A stretch of 64,000 bases of DNA from Hansschlegelia quercus. Lineage in GTDB: Bacteria > Pseudomonadota > Alphaproteobacteria > Rhizobiales > Methylopilaceae. Shown here one piece after another: positions 26,851 through 34,625 of the stretch; within the stretch, counting starts at the first letter, position 1; every line of letters begins with the position of its first letter. Where the stretch lies: positions 62,001 to 126,000 of the forward strand of contig NZ_SIUB01000001.1 in NCBI RefSeq assembly GCF_004310425.1, read 5' to 3'. The position numbers were made by a program, and so were the translations under genes. The notes below the pieces were generated by a model, which was not told where the DNA came from, did no database searches, and was given only the letters and a program-made list of their open reading frames with translations.

Positions 26851-26976
26851 TCGATCGACACAATTCGCGACTGACGCGGACGCGCCGCCAACTGGCGCGT
26901 TCTTCAAAAACGCTCTAAAGAGCCCGCCCGAGGCGGCGCGCGTTTGCCCGCGCGCCTCACATCCGGCGAGCGGCTC

Positions 26977-27297
26977 ATGGCGAAGATCACCTTCATCAAT
27001 CAGTCCGGCGAGAAGCGCACGGTTGAGGCTCCTGACGGATCGTCCGTAATGGAAGCCGCCGTACGCAACGACGTCCCCGGCATCGACGCCGATTGCGGCG
27101 GCGCCTGCTCGTGCGCGACCTGCCACGTCTATGTCGACGAAGCCTGGGTCGAAGCCGTTGGCGGACCGGAGCCGATGGAGGAGGACATGCTGGACTTCGC
27201 CTACGACGTCCGCCCGAACAGCCGGCTATCCTGCCAGATCGCCATTCGGCCCGAACTCGACGGGCTCGTCGTCCAGACTCCCGAACGCCAGGGTTAA
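26977..27297 (+). CDS. [2Fe-2S] ferredoxin, adrenodoxin/FdVI type
   Basis: 106 residues. The cluster is bound by the Cys pattern in [15 protein letters not shown] (C-x5-C-x2-C near residues 38-47) and the final Cys in SRLSCQIAI near residue 84. This is the arrangement of bacterial FdVI and adrenodoxin-like ferredoxins. It transfers single electrons, for example to P450s or in iron-sulfur assembly. No redox partner lies beside it. The ATG at 26977 starts directly at [18 protein letters not shown], as in the family; the region upstream is noncoding. Confidence 0.93.
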
Positions 27298-27638
27298 GGA
27301 TTGGGGCCTTCTCCCCAACCTCACTGCTTCTCCTCGCATGTCCGCCGGCCCTAGACGATCATGGCTTGGGCGCGCTCTTTGAGAAGATGGTGAACAAGGC
27401 GTTAACGACGTTTGCTAATCAAGTGATTCCACGGTTCTCTAGCGGCAGGATCGTCGCTAGCATCGCATCGCGTGATAAGGCATCCCGAAGGCGACGCGGC
27501 GCCAACGGGATGACGGTGCGATCGCTGGGCGAATTCGTAGGTCTGTCAGGCGCTTGGTGCGTATTCCAAGATCTGACGCAAGACCTTCGGGCTCGCTCTG
27601 TGCGACCGATGGGTAAAGCGTACGGGCGAGGCGGTGAA
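27298..27638 (+). other. 341-base gap before the giant coiled-coil gene
   Basis: Between the ferredoxin stop and the chosen start. It holds a small hairpin right after the ferredoxin (TTGGGG / CCCCAA) without a T-run, and a less GC-rich stretch around 27395-27425 (GTTAACGACGTTTGCTAATC) that could carry the promoter. The giant gene's frame is open throughout, but the sequence encodes no recognisable domain. I see no other gene. Confidence 0.6.
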
Positions 27639-30600
27639 ATGGCGAACGTCAACAAGGCGAAGGATCCGGCCGAGGCCGCCCTTTCCGCGATCGAAGAGGC
27701 TCTGAGCCTCATGGCGCCGGGGGCGGACGCCACGGTCGAGCAGGCGAAGCCGGTTCCGATCCCGCAGAATCCCGCGGCGCGTCCCGAGCCGCCTCTTACC
27801 CCGCCCGCAGAACGCCCCGCCCCTTCGCTCGATCGCAACCGCCGCGCTCCGGCGAACGACGACGCCCGCTCCTTCGCCCACATCGTCTACGCCCTCCAGC
27901 GCAAGCCCTCCAAAACCCCGTTCATCCTCGCGGCCATCGCCTCGGTCGCCTGGCTCGTCCTCGGGGCGGTCTATCTGTTCGGCGTGCTCGGCTTTGGCCG
28001 CGGCGGGCTCGACCTCGCCGAGCCGGCTTCGCAAGCTCAGCTCGCGGCCGTCGTCGGCGGCATGATTGCGCCCGTCGTGTTCTTCTTCGTGCTGGCCATG
28101 ATGTCGTGGCGCGCGCAGGAGATGCGGCTCGTCGCCCGCTCCATGACCGAGGTCGCGCTGCGCCTCGCGGAGCCAGACGCTTCCTCCGCTGATGCGGTGT
28201 CGTCGCTCGGTCAGGCGGTTCGCCGCGAAGTTGCTGCGATGGGCGATGGCGTCGAGCGCGCGGTCGCCCGCGCGAGCGATCTGGAATCCATGGTGCGCGG
28301 CGAGGTTTCCGCGCTCGAACGCTCGTTCCATGAGAACGAGGTCCGCGTCGGCAAGCTGATCGCCGAGATCCAGGCGCAGCGCGACGGCATCGACGGCAAC
28401 GCGCAGCAGCTTCGCGACACCATCGCTGGCGCCCACGACCTTCTGGCGCGTGACCTCAACGCGGCCGCCGTGCTTCTCGCCTCGAACGTCACCGAATCCG
28501 GCGAGCGCGCGGCCTCCGACCTGAACGAGAAGAGCAACGAGATCGCACAGGCCATCCAGCGCGCCGGCGAGAACATGCTGGCCGCGATCGGCGGCCGCGG
28601 CGCCGAGATGATCGAGCGCCTCGCGACCAGCGGCGGCGACGTCGCGCGCGACATCGATGAAACCGGCCGCAAGCTCGCCGACCTGCTCGTCGAGCGTTCG
28701 GAAGCCTCCCGCCGGGCGCTCGAGAGCTCCGGCGGCTACATCGTCGACGCGCTCGAGGAGCGCACCAACCTGCTGACCGAAAGGCTTGCTGCGGCGAGCA
28801 CGGAATTCGAGCAGCGCCTTTCCGCCACCGCGACTGAGGCGACGCTGACGCTGAGCTCGCGCGGCGACGACGTCGTCGGAAGCCTCGACCGCCTCGGTTC
28901 GGACATTACCGAGCGGCTCGCTCGCAAGTCCGACGAGATCGTGGCGGCGCTTCATCGCACCGGCTCGGATCTGACCGAATCCTTCTCCGCGCGCGCAGGC
29001 GCCGTGACGGACTCGCTCGCCGCGACGCGTAGCGATTTCCACCGCGTCCTCGACGTCCGCTCGGGCGAGATTCTCGAGACGATCGGGCGCCGTTCGCACG
29101 AGGTGACCGAAGCGCTTGGCGAGGCCGGCGCGCGGTTCGACGGTGTGATCGAGTCCCGCAGCCGCGAGATCATCGACGCGCTCGATGCGCGCAGTGTGGA
29201 GCTGCCGAGCCGGCTCAGCGAGAGCGTGGCCGACGTGACCGAGGCCTTCGCCGCCCGCGGCGATGATGTTATCGAACGCTTCTCTGCGAACGCTTCGCGT
29301 CTGTCGGGCGAGTTCGCCGCCCGCGGAGCCCTGTTTACGGACAGCCTCGAGCGCGCAGGCCTGGTGCTCACCGAAGGCTTCGGCGATCACGCCGAAGGCA
29401 TCGTCGCCGCCATCTCCGCGCGGGCCGAGGCCGCCGCTCTCTCGCTCCGCGACGTCGGCGGCAGCGTCGAGACCACGATTTCGGAGCGCGCTGAGGAAAT
29501 CGGCGCGACGCTGCGCGACGCGGGCGAGCGCGCCGCGGAGCTGTTCGGCTCCCATGGCGCCGCAATTTCGGATCGTCTCGACGCCAACGCCCGGACGCTG
29601 GTCGACGAGGTTTCCGCGCGGAGCGAGGACCTGTCGGAGCGCATCGTCGAGGCGAGCGCCCGTATTCACGAGGCCATCGTCTCCAAGGGCGGCGATCTCG
29701 CGCAGCAGTTCCGCGAGGACGGCGAGCGTATCGCCGGCCTGCTCGAGGCGCGCGGCGACGACGTCGCCGGCCGGATCAGCAGCGCGGCCGACCGGGTGCA
29801 CGACGCGATCGTGGTGCGCAGCGAAGTGGCCGAGCAGACGCTCGACGAAGCCGGCCGCCGCATCGCCGCGACCATCGACGGCCGCGCCGGCGAGGCGCGC
29901 GAGCAGATCGAGACCGCCGGCGTCACCATCGCCGACGTGCTGGCCGAGCGTAGCGCCATCTTCATCAACACGCTGGGCGACGCCGCCGAGCGTATCCATG
30001 ACGTCGTCGTGGTCCGCGGCGGCGACCTCGAGGATCGCCTGAAGGCGAGCGGCGACCGCATCGGCGTGACGATCGACGAGCGCGCCGCCGGGGCGCAGGC
30101 GGCGCTTGAAGCCGCGACCCGCCGCCTCGACGAGGGTATGGTCGAGAAGCTCCGGGAGTTCGAGGGACGTCTGGCCTCCACCAGCGACACCGTGTCGGAG
30201 CTGATCTCCGACCGCGGCGGCCAGCTCACCATGACGCTGGCGGATACCGCCGAGCGGATCCACGACACGATCGTGGTCCGCGGCGGCGACCTCCAGGAGC
30301 GCCTCGCGTCGGTCGAAGACCGCATCGTGGCCGCGGTCGCGGAGCGTTCGCAGGCGGCCGAACTCGCTTTCGCCGAAGCCGACGAGCGGACCGCCGCTGC
30401 GCTCGAGGAGCGCATCAAGACCTTTGAGGCGCGCTTCGACGCCGCCGGCACGTCGCTCGGGGACCGCCTCACCGGCGAAATCGTCCTTGCCGAGCGCATG
30501 CTCAATGAAGCCGCGAATCATGTCGCGATCCGTCTTGAGGAGGGCGCGGCCGGCGCCCGCGGAACGCTCGAGGAATCGGTCGTCATCTTCGGCGGCCTGA

Positions 30601-33600
30601 TGAACAACCGCGTCGACGCCATTCGCGAGCAGCTCGATCGGATCGTCGGCGAGATCGAGGATTCGGTCGCGCAGCGCGGCGAACGGGTCGGCGAGGCGCT
30701 GACGAACGCGGCGAGCGCCTTCAGCGACGCCATCGCCGCGCGCGGCGGCGCGCTCAGCGACCAGCTCTCCATGCAGCTTGCGGGCTTCGACGAGACGCTC
30801 TCCACCAACGGCCCGGCGCTCGTCGAGCGCCTTTCGACCGAGAGCAGCCGCTTCGCGGACGTGCTCGCCGAGCGCGTCGCCCAGGTCGAACGCCGCCTCG
30901 CCACGGAGACCGACAAGGTCGCCGTGTCCCTCGACCAGCGCATCGAAGCGGTCGCCGACACGCTCGCCCACTTCGACCAAGCGGCCAGCGGGCATGTCGA
31001 AAAGCTCGACGACCGCGTGGCGCAGGTGGCCGACGAGATCGGCCAGCGCCTCGGCGCCATCGACGAGGTCACCCGCAGCCAGGCGGAAGCCCTCGACGAG
31101 CGAATCTCCCGCCTCGACCGCGAGGTCGCCGATCGCATCAGCGCGCTCGACGCCTCGGCCCGCGATCATGTCGGCGCGATCGCGTCGAGCGCGGAACGTC
31201 TTTCTGCGGACGTTGCGGCCCGGCTCGCCGGTTTCGAGGAAACGTCGCAGGCTCACGTCGAATCGCTCGATCGCGGCGCCGAGCGCGTCGCATCGGAGAT
31301 CGCAGCGAAGGTCGCCGAGTTCGATCGCGTGGCCCGCGAGCATGCGGACTCTCTCGACCAGCGCGCCGGCCGTGTCGGCGCCGAGCTCGCAGCCAAGATC
31401 GACTCGTTCGACGAAGTCGCCCGTCAGCAGGCGGAAGGCTTCGACGAGCGCATCGAGCGTGTCGGCGAGACCATCACGGCGCGGATCGGCGCCTTTGAGG
31501 AAGCCGCCTACGCCCATGTCGGCGCGATCGACAGCGGCGCGGACCGCGTGGTTCACGAGATCGCCAACAAGATCGCGACCTTCGACGCCGCTGCGCGTTC
31601 GCACGCCGCGACGCTCGACGATCGGGTCGAGCGGGTCGGCGAGACGATCGTGGCTCGGATGGGCTCCTTCGAGGACAGGGTCGCGACCATCGACGACCAG
31701 ATCATCCGCCTCGACGGAGCGTTTGCCCAGCGCGTCGCATCGCTCGACACCAAGGTCGGCGACATCGACGAGACGGTCGGCGCTCATATCGGCAAGATCG
31801 ACATCAAGATCTCGACGCTCGACCGCATCATCGGCGAGCGGCTCGGCGCCTTCGACAACCGCGTCTCGGCGCTCGACAGCGCACTCGGCGCGCGCTTCGA
31901 CACCTTCTCTTCGCGCATCGGCGCGCTGGACGGCGCGCTCGACGAGCGGATCGCGGCTCTCGCCGATCGCGCGGGCGCCGTCGGCTCGGCGGTGGCGGAG
32001 AGCTTCGCCGGCTTCGACGACAGCGCGGACCGGCTCACCGCCGCCGTCGCCGCGCATCTCGCGCAGTTCGACGCCAAAGCGGCCGACCTCGAGCGCGGCA
32101 TCGCGTCCCGCGCCGACACGTTCACGTCCCGCGCGGGCGATCTCGACGCGCTGCTCGCGAGCCGCTTCGCTTCGTTCGACGACCAGATGTCGACCCGGAT
32201 GGGCGATCTCGCGCTCTCGCTCGAGAGCCGCATCACGCGGATCGACGACGGCCTGAGCTCGCGCACCCGCACGCTGAACGAGACGCTGGCCCAGCGCACG
32301 CTGGAGCTCGCCCGCACGCTCGGCGAAGGCTCCACCGGCGTCGCATCCGCCCTCGCCCAGCGCGCGGCGGAGTTCGCCGCTACGCTGTCGGCCCGAACCG
32401 ACGAGTTGGTCGCGTCCTTCGACGGCAAGGCCGAGGCGGTGAACCGCGCTCTTGGCTCCAAGGCGATCGAGGTGGCGGACACGCTCGACACCCGCATCGC
32501 CCGCTTCGAGATGACCGTGCTCGGTCGCCTCGACTCGGTCTCCGCCTCGCTCGACGAGCGCGGCGAGAATGTCGCTGATCGCATCGCCGGCCGCGTCGAA
32601 GGCGTGGCGCAGGCGATGGGCGACGCTTCGTCCCGCGTCGAGGCGGAGCTCGCCAGGCTTGCGAGCGACACCGCGGAAGCGCTCAACGCCCAGATCGGCG
32701 AACTCGCCCATACGATCGACCGCAACGGCGCCGGCCTGCTCGAGCGGCTCGGCCGCCAGGGCGGCGAGGTCACACGCGAGCTCGCGAATGTCGGCGAGGA
32801 CGTGGCCGCCAAGTTCGACGAACGCGCCTCCGCGCTTGTCGAACTCATCGGGGCACGCGGCGAGACGCTGCGCGAGACCATCGACGCGCTGAACGGCGAC
32901 CTTGTCGCGACCTTCGAGACGCGCGGCGCTTCCGCCGTGGCGAACCTCAACCAGGTCTCCGACCGCCTGCGCCTGACGGCCCAGCGGCTCGGCGAGACGA
33001 TGGGCGCGGAGACCACCAAGGCGATCGAGCAGCTCGACGAGTCGAGCGGCAAGCTGCAGGAGGCCGTCACCGAGGCGACCTCGTCGCTCGCCCGCACCAT
33101 CTCCCGGGAGAGCAAGCGCGCCGTCGCCGAGCTCACGGAAACGCAGAGCGCGCTCACGGCCGAGCTTCTGGACGCCCTCTCGCGTCTCTCGGACGCCAAC
33201 GGCGCGCTGCAGGGCTTGCTGGACAGCGCGACGCGCAAGCTCGGCGCGGTCGAAACCGACCTCAGCGGACGCGTCAACGCGTTCGAGGAGATCATGGCCG
33301 ACATCGCCGAGACCACTACGAGGACCGGCGAGCGTGTCGGCGGCCAGGTGGCGTCGCTGCGCGACATCTCGGCCGGCGTGCTCGACCGGGTCGGCGAAGT
33401 CTCCCGTCAGCTCGAAGGACAGCAGCACGCCCTCGCCCGCGTTGCGGAGCATCTCGACAATACACAGGGGCGTCTTGCAGGCGCACTCGAAGAGCGCCGC
33501 ACCGCGCTCGACGCGCTGGGCGTCAATCTTGGCCAGAAGGCGCGCGAGCTGACATCGTCGCTCGAGAGCTTCTCGGCCTCGATCGACGCTTCGCTTTCGA

Positions 33601-34625
33601 AGTCCGAGCAGCGGGCAAGCCGCGTCGCCGAAGGCCTTGCCGCCCAGGTCGGCGCGACCACCCAGTCGATCGCGTCGGAGTTCGAGAAGGTCCGCCACAC
33701 CAGCGAGGCCGAGCGCCAGCGCACCTCGAGCGCCCTGAAGGCGGTCAATGAGGAGGCGTCCCGCGAGATCGGCCGCATGCTCACCGACGCGAGCTCGCGC
33801 TTCAATGAGGTCGCCCGCGAGATGCGGACGATGACGGCATCGATCCAGAGCGAGCTCGACCAGACGCGCGAGCAGCTGCGTCGGGGCGTACTCGAAATGC
33901 CGAAGGAAGCCGAGCACAGCGCGGGCGAGCTGCGCCGCGTGGTCGCCGACCAGATCAAGGCGCTGACGGCGCTGGGCGAGATCGCAGCGCGCCACGGCGC
34001 AGGCCTCGACGTGGCGGAGGCCGGCCAGCGCGCCGTCCGCGCCCAGGCGCTCGCCGCTCCGCGCACGGCGACGGTTAGCGAGCCCGTGCGGACGCAGACC
34101 CCGCCCGCTCCGCGTCCGGCTCCAGCCCGGCCCGCGCCGGCGCCCGCCGCGGCCCTGCCCTCGGCTTCCGCTCCCGCTTCGCTCGGCGACGACGAAGGCG
34201 GCAGCTGGATCTCGGGCCTGCTCGCCCGCGCCTCACGCGACGAGGAGCCCCGCAGCGACGCCAACGCCGCGTCGCAGTCGCTGGAGACGCTCGACACGCT
34301 GTCGATCGACATCACGCGGATGATCGACGACAAGGCCGTCGCCGAGCTTTGGGACCGCTACCGCCGCGGCGAGCGCGACGTCTTCACGCGCCGGCTCTAC
34401 ACGCTGCAGGGCCAGCAGACCTTCGAGGACATCCGACGTAAATACGCAGCCGATCCGGACTTCCGGACCACCGTCGACCGCTATGTCGACGAGTTCGAGA
34501 AGCTCATTGAGGAGGTCGCGGGCGACGATCCGAACGAGGCGATGACGCAAACCTACCTGACCTCGGACACCGGCAAGGTCTACACCATGCTGGCGCACGC
34601 CTCGGGTAAGTTCGGCAAGGTCTGA
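27639..34625 (+). CDS. Giant membrane-anchored coiled-coil protein, 2328 residues, hendecad repeats
   Basis: Order: a short Pro-rich cytosolic stretch (1-90), membrane helix 1 at about 93-118 (PFILAAIASVAWLVLGAVYL), helix 2 at about 135-157 (VVGGMIAPVVFFFVLAMM), then a very long alpha-helical region. Residues 267-1102 split into 38 contiguous 22-residue units, each two 11-residue hendecads. Residues 1112-1343 are eight exact 29-residue units. Less regular helical repeats run to about 2120. A Pro/Ala linker (2140-2190) leads to a C-terminal domain (about 2219-2328) with DDKAVAELWDRYRRGE and TFEDIRRKYAADPDFR. Large proteins of this shape occur in related genomes, usually labelled hypothetical or kinesin-like, but there is no motor domain. 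A structural role in the envelope or cytoplasm is only inference. The start has GAGG upstream; ATG 27609 is an alternative. Confidence 0.88.
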   Translation: MANVNKAKDPAEAALSAIEEALSLMAPGADATVEQAKPVPIPQNPAARPEPPLTPPAERPAPSLDRNRRAPANDDARSFAHIVYALQRKPSKTPFILAAIASVAWLVLGAVYLFGVLGFGRGGLDLAEPASQAQLAAVVGGMIAPVVFFFVLAMMSWRAQEMRLVARSMTEVALRLAEPDASSADAVSSLGQAVRREVAAMGDGVERAVARASDLESMVRGEVSALERSFHENEVRVGKLIAEIQAQRDGIDGNAQQLRDTIAGAHDLLARDLNAAAVLLASNVTESGERAASDLNEKSNEIAQAIQRAGENMLAAIGGRGAEMIERLATSGGDVARDIDETGRKLADLLVERSEASRRALESSGGYIVDALEERTNLLTERLAAASTEFEQRLSATATEATLTLSSRGDDVVGSLDRLGSDITERLARKSDEIVAALHRTGSDLTESFSARAGAVTDSLAATRSDFHRVLDVRSGEILETIGRRSHEVTEALGEAGARFDGVIESRSREIIDALDARSVELPSRLSESVADVTEAFAARGDDVIERFSANASRLSGEFAARGALFTDSLERAGLVLTEGFGDHAEGIVAAISARAEAAALSLRDVGGSVETTISERAEEIGATLRDAGERAAELFGSHGAAISDRLDANARTLVDEVSARSEDLSERIVEASARIHEAIVSKGGDLAQQFREDGERIAGLLEARGDDVAGRISSAADRVHDAIVVRSEVAEQTLDEAGRRIAATIDGRAGEAREQIETAGVTIADVLAERSAIFINTLGDAAERIHDVVVVRGGDLEDRLKASGDRIGVTIDERAAGAQAALEAATRRLDEGMVEKLREFEGRLASTSDTVSELISDRGGQLTMTLADTAERIHDTIVVRGGDLQERLASVEDRIVAAVAERSQAAELAFAEADERTAAALEERIKTFEARFDAAGTSLGDRLTGEIVLAERMLNEAANHVAIRLEEGAAGARGTLEESVVIFGGLMNNRVDAIREQLDRIVGEIEDSVAQRGERVGEALTNAASAFSDAIAARGGALSDQLSMQLAGFDETLSTNGPALVERLSTESSRFADVLAERVAQVERRLATETDKVAVSLDQRIEAVADTLAHFDQAASGHVEKLDDRVAQVADEIGQRLGAIDEVTRSQAEALDERISRLDREVADRISALDASARDHVGAIASSAERLSADVAARLAGFEETSQAHVESLDRGAERVASEIAAKVAEFDRVAREHADSLDQRAGRVGAELAAKIDSFDEVARQQAEGFDERIERVGETITARIGAFEEAAYAHVGAIDSGADRVVHEIANKIATFDAAARSHAATLDDRVERVGETIVARMGSFEDRVATIDDQIIRLDGAFAQRVASLDTKVGDIDETVGAHIGKIDIKISTLDRIIGERLGAFDNRVSALDSALGARFDTFSSRIGALDGALDERIAALADRAGAVGSAVAESFAGFDDSADRLTAAVAAHLAQFDAKAADLERGIASRADTFTSRAGDLDALLASRFASFDDQMSTRMGDLALSLESRITRIDDGLSSRTRTLNETLAQRTLELARTLGEGSTGVASALAQRAAEFAATLSARTDELVASFDGKAEAVNRALGSKAIEVADTLDTRIARFEMTVLGRLDSVSASLDERGENVADRIAGRVEGVAQAMGDASSRVEAELARLASDTAEALNAQIGELAHTIDRNGAGLLERLGRQGGEVTRELANVGEDVAAKFDERASALVELIGARGETLRETIDALNGDLVATFETRGASAVANLNQVSDRLRLTAQRLGETMGAETTKAIEQLDESSGKLQEAVTEATSSLARTISRESKRAVAELTETQSALTAELLDALSRLSDANGALQGLLDSATRKLGAVETDLSGRVNAFEEIMADIAETTTRTGERVGGQVASLRDISAGVLDRVGEVSRQLEGQQHALARVAEHLDNTQGRLAGALEERRTALDALGVNLGQKARELTSSLESFSASIDASLSKSEQRASRVAEGLAAQVGATTQSIASEFEKVRHTSEAERQRTSSALKAVNEEASREIGRMLTDASSRFNEVAREMRTMTASIQSELDQTREQLRRGVLEMPKEAEHSAGELRRVVADQIKALTALGEIAARHGAGLDVAEAGQRAVRAQALAAPRTATVSEPVRTQTPPAPRPAPARPAPAPAAALPSASAPASLGDDEGGSWISGLLARASRDEEPRSDANAASQSLETLDTLSIDITRMIDDKAVAELWDRYRRGERDVFTRRLYTLQGQQTFEDIRRKYAADPDFRTTVDRYVDEFEKLIEEVAGDDPNEAMTQTYLTSDTGKVYTMLAHASGKFGKV
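28437..30944 (+). repeat. 38 phase-locked 22-residue (66-base) repeats in the giant coiled-coil gene
   Basis: Thirty-eight consecutive 66-base units in one uninterrupted phase, from DLLARDLNAAAV to AQVERRLATETD. Typical units are GDLAQQFREDGERIAG+LLEARG and GDLEDRLKASGDRIGV+TIDERA. The consensus is roughly x-D-L-x-x-x-L-x-x-x-G-x-x-I-x-x-x-L-x-x-R-G. Each unit is two 11-residue hendecads, as in apolipoprotein-type helices. Some units are closely alike at DNA level, for instance those at 29955-30086 and 30219-30350, four units apart, suggesting block duplication. Confidence 0.85.
30972..31667 (+). repeat. Eight tandem 29-residue (87-base) repeats in the giant coiled-coil gene
   Basis: Eight consecutive 87-base units with no insertion, from FDQAASGHVEKLDDRV to FDAAARSHAATLDDRV; the next segment begins FEDRVATID at 31668. 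The pattern is F-D-x-x-A-x-x-H-x-x-x-L-D-x-R-x-x-R-V-x-x-E-I-x-x-K-I-x-x. Twenty-nine residues equals 11+11+7, or eight helical turns at 3.625 residues per turn, so the supercoil pitch differs from the preceding 22-residue region. Confidence 0.88.

Follow-up and report, generated by a model that had tools for sequence, protein, structure and literature searches.

Gene, neighbours and family of the protein

The window, meaning the whole 64,000-nucleotide stretch of Hansschlegelia quercus DNA that was analysed, carries a gene for a giant protein of 2,328 residues. An N-terminal anchor region is followed by a rod of 1,913 residues, a linker and a C-terminal domain. The features are as follows.

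26944..27297, + strand: 2Fe-2S ferredoxin gene, upstream, a conserved neighbour (Fer2 4e-14)
27639..34625, + strand: predicted GPR/RgsE-family gene, 2,328 aa, ATG start (97% of 76 sequences align at Met1)
27639..27911, + strand: Pro-rich N-terminal tail, residues 1-91 (16 Pro within residues 1-94)
27912..28016, + strand: first hydrophobic (predicted transmembrane) segment, residues 92-126 (hydropathy; AF2 helix 93-115)
28032..28121, + strand: second hydrophobic (predicted transmembrane) segment, residues 132-161 (hydropathy; AF2 helix 129-177)
28197..28382, + strand: rod start, residues 187-248, highly conserved (anchor Arg195 in 134/134)
28383..30971, + strand: hendecad block A, residues 249-1111 (a single phase over 863 residues; encloses 28437-30944)
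30972..32111, + strand: block B, residues 1112-1491, 29-residue repeats, 29/8 = 3.625 (period 29, z=11.5)
32112..32954, + strand: hendecad block C, residues 1492-1772 (281 residues; z=16.3)
32955..33995, + strand: final rod part, residues 1773-2119, helical, with no clear repeat (AF2)
33996..34205, + strand: Pro/Ala-rich linker, residues 2120-2189 (pLDDT mostly <50; 12 Pro in 2113-2188)
34206..34622, + strand: conserved all-helical C-terminal domain, residues 2190-2328 (194/199 genomes of the order)

From its sequence the protein is assigned as an ortholog of the polar-growth scaffold known as GPR in Agrobacterium and RgsE in Sinorhizobium. Published accounts describe GPR (2,115 aa) and RgsE (2,089 aa) as membrane-anchored proteins with apolipoprotein-type helices, give a polar site and a shape defect for both species, and report a ring of GPR in A. 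tumefaciens (PMC8262873; PMC7327166). By that published description, GPR (Agrobacterium tumefaciens Atu1348) and the window protein are alike in their giant size, a pair of membrane segments at the N-terminus, a PF01442-type rod and an essential C-terminal region (PMC8262873). The two transmembrane segments expected of GPR/RgsE are present here by hydropathy and as AF2 helices, and account for the membrane anchor of the original prediction; so is the very long helical rod, which draws PF01442-type matches. The scaffold role suggested there fits the known family.

The Sinorhizobium meliloti locus L090 aligns with the window protein from end to end, with identities of 40% in the N-terminal part, 29% in the rod and 51% in the C-terminal part. 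It encodes 2,094 aa from its ATG as against the 2,089 printed for RgsE (SMc00190; PMC7327166) of the same species. Its rod has 1,626 residues compared with 1,913 in the window, with two phase-locked runs, of 118 and 555 residues, and a phase break at residue 435/436 of its frame. A ferredoxin relative lies 1.1 kb upstream of L090 on the opposite strand, unlike in the window; of the 80 named loci, 74 contain such a relative, among them 63 of the 64 that span 20 kb. TipN of Caulobacter crescentus (882 aa) is said in print to resemble GPR (PMC8546619) and to be analogous to it (PMC13170164).

The C-terminal domain matches once in the genome of the window and was found in 194/199 genomes of the order and in 109/289 of the class sample. 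No best Pfam stretch falls inside it, and a fold search of its model against the PDB gave 0 matches at E<=0.001. A PDB sequence search with the profile of residues 1840-2328 returned 24 distinct sequences at E<=0.01, none judged informative; in every case the best stretch stops by profile position 263 of 515, short of the linker and the C-terminal domain. Among NCBIfam labels, ZorA, SpiroCoCo_N and others like them were rejected as their scores fall under the cut-offs, and LA_3659, which is over its cut-off (50.6 vs 36), was judged a chance likeness of coiled coils.

The family itself is known; what is new is an evolutionary whole-turn rule. The words hendecad, 11-residue, 22-residue and repeat are absent from the 2021 GPR paper (PMC8262873). 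No hendecad description of GPR/RgsE was found in the literature searched, a search to which the original 2019 PNAS description of GPR did not belong.

Repeat anatomy and geometry of the rod

Residue 267 falls at position 28437 in the frame of the ATG at 27639, and residues 267-1102 divide evenly into 38 blocks of exactly 22, as the original prediction had it. The phase-locked run is longer than first reported, extending over residues 249-1111. The hydrophobicity power of 267-1102 is 113.7 at 11/3 and 21.0 at 11, the maximum of 100 shuffles being 14.8, which excludes a chance origin of the periodicity. A heptad signal was looked for in the same residues and the power was 0.2 at 3.5 and 0.3 at 7, so the heptad reading was rejected. 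The hydrophobic core positions thus have the 11/3 periodicity of a hendecad coiled coil. Two hendecad positions are occupied by ILVMF in 84% and 100% of cases, in line with the conserved hydrophobic positions noticed earlier, and the third core position by G/A/S in 79%.

Peaks had been expected at both 11 and 22 residues. The first is clear; the second is missing from hydrophobicity (power 1.5) and present in residue identities, the information by period in 267-1102 being z=37.6 at 11, z=32.0 at 22 and z=1.2 at 7. Residue identity in the block A region has an autocorrelation of 0.203 at lag 22 and of 0.145 at lag 11. Between the first and second half of the 22-mer the difference is 163.1 bits, compared with 104.7 +/- 11.4 for random half-swapping (maximum 148.6 in 1,000 draws). 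The 22-residue super-unit is real. A terminal Arg-Gly, Arg-Ser or Arg-Ala, said to recur, closes 17 of the 38 blocks and not every one; position 21 of the 22-mer is Arg in 22/38.

Blocks B (1112-1491) and C (1492-1772) were absent from the earlier description. Block B has a windowed period of ~3.62 across much of its length, and residues 1773-2110 have no period scoring above z=2.3. Tandem Repeats Finder detected no 33- or 66-bp array in the window DNA, for which reason the repeat units of the window are taken to be old.

The stripe periods of 3.667 (11-residue) and 3.625 (29-residue) residues per turn are very near that of an unstrained alpha helix. By coiled-coil theory, chains packing along such a stripe form a straight, hardly supercoiled coiled coil. 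The stripe of block A is narrow and its net charge is -7.6 per 100 residues; the net charge is negative in 134/134 rods. Narrowness and negative charge together favour a coiled coil over a lipid sheet. A continuous helix had been predicted, and AF2 gave long helices with a short break between 204-317 and 324-499; in the C-terminal piece residues 1841-2119 form one helix with pLDDT mostly 70-91. Since these models are shallow, single-chain pieces (two, pTM 0.28 each) with residues 501-1839 outside them, "coiled coil" and "straight" are inferred. A helix that lies along a membrane should be under phase selection too, so such selection alone is no proof of a coiled coil. Fully extended, 1,913 residues at 0.15 nm would span about 287 nm, close to the ~300 nm first estimated. 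An undecad coiled coil is likewise described for cavin, a coat protein of membranes with repeats of 11 residues; cavins are peripheral proteins of far smaller size.

Rod length and whole-turn changes among orthologs

Across 134 orthologs the rod measures between 937 and 2,385 residues, a 2.5-fold variation; rods of the ten nearest sequences printed have 1,826 to 2,124 residues. The suggestion of a ruler, taken as a conserved length, is not supported by this range. In-phase hendecad runs in 76 orthologs are at least 400 residues long in 46, 200-400 in 4 and under 200 in 26; a long hendecad run is not universal in the family. Among the outgroup relatives tested, 6/10 use 25-residue repeats (25/7) and not hendecads.

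Insertions and deletions were collected from 34 disjoint close-ortholog pairs, all of them kept, with no pair at >=99.5% identity liable to double counting. All 51 of the rod events have near whole-turn lengths (7, 11, 18, 22, 29 ... residues). The list of whole-turn lengths was compiled after the gaps had been seen; a scan over T, independent of that list, gave a best period of the rod gap lengths of T=3.640 with R=0.93, random-length draws reaching at most 0.47 (n=500). Gaps of 1-6 residues number 0 in 51,022 rod residues of close orthologs versus 94 in 16,618 non-rod residues, which include disordered linkers tolerant of indels. Selection against frame slippage, as originally proposed, is borne out by this absence. 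Aligner bias was excluded by simulation, in which 20-26% whole-turn lengths were recovered when 22-27% had been put in. Flank DNA identity at the rod events has a median of 0.76 against 0.52 expected and lies above the null in 48/51, which points to a tandem mechanism. The quantisation is less sharp in pairs of 60-80% identity (R=0.65), where 32 of 216 rod gaps are of 1-6 residues.

SMC served as control in 13 of these genome pairs, its frames picked by similarity and the G102/G129 pair left out because the gene is split. Over 14,451 aligned residues it shows not one internal gap; 20 of the 51 rod length changes fall in these 13 pairs. In the outgroups the gap list contains few clear deep changes (132, 44, 4+47, 8+46, 272, 323) and small gaps, possibly in rods, of 4 residues (L203/L205) and 1 residue (L207/L206); these gaps are too few and the rod limits too unsure to judge the whole-turn rule.

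Proposed roles of the rod: strut, lipid binder or ruler

The protein is probably a growth-pole scaffold with a straight, membrane-anchored coiled-coil rod, free in length and locked in phase. In Rhizobiales, GPR/RgsE organises how the envelope grows at the new pole of the cell, and the ortholog here would do the same. By sequence, its two N-terminal hydrophobic segments anchor it in the inner membrane, the membrane side being taken from orthologs, and a cytoplasmic alpha-helical rod of ~1,900 residues would run from the anchor to a flexible linker and then the C-terminal domain, as the sequence and the two AF2 pieces suggest. The hydrophobic stripe has a period of 11 residues in blocks A and C and of 29 in block B, and selection holds it to one face. 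Repeats come and go, largely via tandem duplication or deletion, and in close relatives the only changes seen are of about whole turns. To judge from the orthologs, the rod probably serves as a stiff, straight strut in the polar ring, keeping the C-terminal domain and its binders away from the anchor, and its reach would be adjustable, not fixed.

The GPR authors' proposal, an apolipoprotein-like lipid binder whose 11/22-residue helices lie on the membrane or form lipid-sorting bundles, seems rather unlikely. Repeats of 11 or 22 residues are typical of apolipoproteins, and this helical periodicity is what the apolipoprotein A-I/A-IV/E family, PF01442, has in common with the window protein. The protein matches PF01442 at 1.1e-73 in 13 stretches and scores 247.5 as a whole against a curated cut-off of 90 bits; however, no single stretch is over the cut-off, the whole passing by summed stretches, and the profile is unspecific, yielding sub-cut-off matches in 7/14 well-known genomes in a control search. 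Two apoA-IV chains, 9hx4 (2.3e-4) and 3s84 (4e-4), weakly match the profile of residues 1840-2328, and the GPR paper argues for a lipid role with two domains modelled on apoA-IV (PMC8262873). Unlike these apolipoproteins, the window protein is membrane-anchored and net acidic, has a ~1,900-residue rod with a narrow stripe, and is nearly proline-free, residues 196-2085 containing just two, Pro523 and Pro1059. A crude lipid-binding score is passed by only 2% of the 18-residue windows in 267-1102. Such rough gauges of amphipathicity and charge weigh against lipid binding.

That the whole-turn changes reflect mutation alone, by slippage between repeats with phase unselected, is improbable. Units of 11 or 29 residues do make unit-sized events likely, and the raised flank identity agrees with such an origin. 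Yet changes of 1-6 residues need no repeats and are still missing from the rods, and events of 7, 18, 36, 40, 62 and 65 residues are near whole turns without being multiples of one unit. A molecular ruler, whose length would set a distance such as the ring diameter or the distance from the pole, is very improbable. The extended ~287 nm comes close to the 200 nm reported for the GPR ring of A. tumefaciens (PMC8262873), block C has 281 residues in the window and in orthologs L031, L032 and L033, and several outgroup pairs with shorter proteins keep their rod length. Against this stand the spread of rod lengths over the family and the 51 length changes in close pairs, 20 of them where SMC, itself a coiled coil, is gap-free.

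For the straight, phase-locked rod a broader form is given an even chance: GPR/RgsE proteins would be length-free, phase-locked rods, coiled-coil struts made of swappable near-straight modules (of 11 or 29 residues, or of 25 in outgroups), in a ring of extended ~140-360 nm rods and not folded apolipoprotein bundles. As part of the same evenly balanced proposal, length would drift quickly through duplication in tandem and loss, and the accepted changes would hold the helix face within a fraction of a turn. The GPR authors hold that the protein must fold back, foci being 50 nm wide; their 600 nm for 1,700 residues corresponds to an extended chain (0.35 nm per residue), whereas a helix would by arithmetic measure ~255 nm (PMC8262873).

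The discoverers of GPR, an organiser of unipolar growth, treat the rod as apolipoprotein-like domains (PMC8262873). The repeat anatomy and the whole-turn rule offer a concrete alternative, a straight phase-locked rod. A family in which length varies and phase does not would be an unusually sharp natural experiment in coiled-coil evolution.

Identity of the scaffold protein and its relatives

Translation of the window frame from the ATG at 27639 to the end at 34625 gives a scaffold protein of 2,328 residues. It has two hydrophobic segments (residues 92-126 and 132-161), a long helical rod, a linker and a C-terminal domain (34206-34622). This domain has a single match in the window's genome, and 194 of 199 Rhizobiales genomes have it; no Pfam family and no solved relative was found for it. 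The nearest named records are the Hansschlegelia loci L031-L033, and the Sinorhizobium meliloti locus L090 aligns with the window protein end to end. In S. meliloti this protein is RgsE, a homolog of Agrobacterium GPR (PMC7327166). Each is a giant cytoplasmic protein with a membrane anchor, located at the growing pole, and depleting either produces misshapen cells (PMC7327166; PMC8262873). The scaffold gene has a conserved neighbor:

26944-27297, same strand as the scaffold gene, 2Fe-2S ferredoxin gene, upstream of the scaffold gene

Relatives of this gene occur in 74 of the 80 named loci; of the 64 named loci that are 20 kb long, 63 have one. Among 73 loci with a full-length scaffold gene the ferredoxin lies upstream on the opposite strand in 70, upstream on the same strand in 2 (L031 and L032, as in the window) and downstream in 1; the distance is at most 1.5 kb in 69. 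Because of the domain, the L090 alignment, the published traits and the ferredoxin neighbor, the window's protein is an ordinary ortholog of the known scaffold GPR/RgsE.

The automatic labels on 27639-34625 are misleading. The protein matches the Pfam apolipoprotein family PF01442 at 1.1e-73 and exceeds the cut-off of the NCBIfam LA_3659 model. When PF01442 was searched in 14 control genomes, 7 gave matches below its cut-off.

The C-terminal domain was also found in 109 of 289 genomes of an alphaproteobacterial class sample, four of these in the order. In 20 such outgroup loci that were read, the proteins are of 727-1,287 residues in 15 and 1,972-2,491 in 5. In ten of them a 25-residue repeat was the clear best in six (z 8-27) and a 29-residue repeat in two; one had a weak 11 and one had none. 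Seen across loci L171-L210, the domain is the mark of a wider family in the Alphaproteobacteria, whose coiled-coil proteins are anchored at the N-terminus and in several cases have 25-residue repeats. In some outgroup members (L193/L194/L195, L209/L185, L171/L172) rod length is unchanged between related species at 71-94% identity, in contrast to members of the order.

Repeat structure of the rod

Residue 267 falls on nucleotide 28437, and residues 267-1102 divide into exactly 38 blocks of 22, as the original prediction held. The hydrophobicity spectrum of this stretch peaks at 3.666 residues (power 113 vs a maximum of 14.8 in 100 shuffles). The next peaks, at 2.2, 5.5 and 11.01, are each a harmonic of 11. 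With no peak at 3.5 or 7, the proposed hendecad rather than heptad periodicity is borne out. Residue identity recurs at 11 (z=37.6) and 22 (z=32.0), and twelve other periods tried from 7 to 29 all gave z <2. The two halves of the 22-residue unit differ by 163.1 bits, vs 104.7 +/- 11.4 when halves are swapped randomly, so the super-unit is real and more than two equal hendecads. Each hendecad has a small residue (G/A/S 79%), a hydrophobic residue three positions on (84% ILVMF), another after four more (100%), and the next small residue four further on. This 3-4-4 spacing is that of hendecad cores. Arg-Gly, Arg-Ser or Arg-Ala, noted as recurring at block ends, stands there in 17 of the 38 blocks.

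A phase-tracking model trained on residues 267-1102 was run on the whole protein; a shuffled copy gave no in-phase run. Residues 249-1111 form a single unbroken hendecad phase, residues 1112-1491 eight short in-phase pieces, and residues 1492-1772 a second unbroken phase, with a further piece up to 1853. Two features thus lie beyond the 38 blocks:

30972-32111, forward strand, block B, 29-residue repeats
32112-32954, forward strand, block C, second hendecad block

The period of block B is mostly ~3.6, with a repeat every 29 residues (z=11.5; 29/8 = 3.625). Block C has 281 residues here and in L031, L032 and L033. The last part of the rod showed no clear repeat by the periodicity test. A minus-strand open frame of 2,149 codons (27546-33995), antisense to the rod, is probably a shadow of GC-rich repeat coding and no gene.

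AF2 was applied to residues 76-500 and 1840-2328 as two pieces, with 32 sequences each. The first (mean pLDDT 75.5) has helices at 204-317 and 324-499; the second (mean pLDDT 72.0) has a single helix at 1841-2119, which leads through a disordered linker to a small domain made up of helices. Since pTM is only 0.28 in both, the arrangement of the helices in space means little. Of the expected continuous helix, the two modelled pieces show long helices, with a break between 317 and 324.

Length changes in the rod

The pool of 134 full-length orthologs consists of the window, 75 of the 80 named loci (L034, L083 and L085 were left out for open 5' ends, L078 and L101 because they are short) and 58 of 60 further loci (L120 and L141 were left out for open 5' ends). 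Arg195 and Ala2108, present in 134/134, bracket the rod. Its length ranges from 937 to 2,385 residues (median 1,521; window 1,913). Because the length varies so much, a fixed-length ruler is unlikely. A hendecad run of at least 400 residues is widespread in the order but not universal, occurring in 46 of 76 sequences examined.

Length changes were compared in 34 disjoint ortholog pairs of 80-99.5% identity, with 51 rod gaps and 98 gaps outside. The rod gaps fall near whole numbers of helical turns: 7 (1), 11 (6), 18 (2), 22 (10), 29 (9), 33 (6), 36 (2), 40 (2), 44 (8), 55 (1), 58 (2), 62 (1) and 65 (1) residues. Gaps outside are of 1-10 residues, plus one of 43. The circular concentration of the rod gaps is 0.93 at 3.640 residues per turn. 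In 500 random draws with lengths of 1-65 it never exceeds 0.47, and the gaps outside the rod reach 0.35. The rod gaps were already known when the list of "whole-turn lengths" was compiled, and random lengths match it at 22-27%. Simulated random gaps passed through the same aligner were returned without bias. In a first set of 76 sequences and 237 overlapping pairs, multiples of 11 made up 233/342 gaps inside hendecad blocks, 132/713 in the remaining rod (where 7, 18, 29 and 58 are common) and 22/1,960 outside. In a wider set of 36 pairs at 60-80% identity, which has 216 rod gaps, the concentration drops to 0.65 and 32 of these gaps are of 1-6 residues; this blurring may reflect merging of events and uncertain alignment, or else a rule that fails over longer times.

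Inserted stretches resemble the neighboring DNA (median identity 0.76, vs 0.52 in a null of equally treated random rod positions; exceeding this null in 48/51, >=0.8 in 20/51), and rod repeats are therefore largely gained and lost in tandem. Slippage alone, without selection on phase, would account for multiples of 11 or 29, but it leaves lengths such as 7, 18, 36 and 40 unexplained, as well as the missing small indels: the close pairs have 0 gaps of 1-6 residues in 51,022 rod residues vs 94 in 16,618 other residues. The predicted selection against frame slippage agrees with this absence, and the near-whole-turn gaps are read as selection on the helical face. In 13 of the genome pairs (one further pair, with a split gene, was left out) SMC aligns over 14,451 residues without an internal gap whereas the scaffold rod has 20 gaps, so fast length change is not general to long coiled coils.

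A probable straight rod in a known family

Chains packed with periods near that of the free alpha helix hardly supercoil. The rod periods, 3.625 and 3.667, are of this kind, and its packed chains would barely supercoil. The hydrophobic stripe is narrow, and each rod has few prolines (median 2, maximum 7). Net charge is negative in 134/134 orthologs, at -9.5 to -4.5 per 100 residues. Taken together, these features make a straight coiled-coil rod the probable form; a helix that coats lipid is rather unlikely, the narrow stripe, negative charge and rare prolines all arguing against it.

The published case against an extended rod takes 600 nm for 1,700 residues (PMC8262873); as a helix, 1,700 residues come by arithmetic to about 255 nm, a length similar in scale to the 200-nm ring. 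None of the terms hendecad, 11-residue, 22-residue and repeat appears in the GPR paper. Among the matches listed for open-licence PMC papers, no hendecad account of a Rhizobiales protein or a bacterial apolipoprotein was found. The scaffold gene is one more member of the known GPR/RgsE family; what is new here is how its rod evolves, by near-whole-turn length changes between close orthologs.
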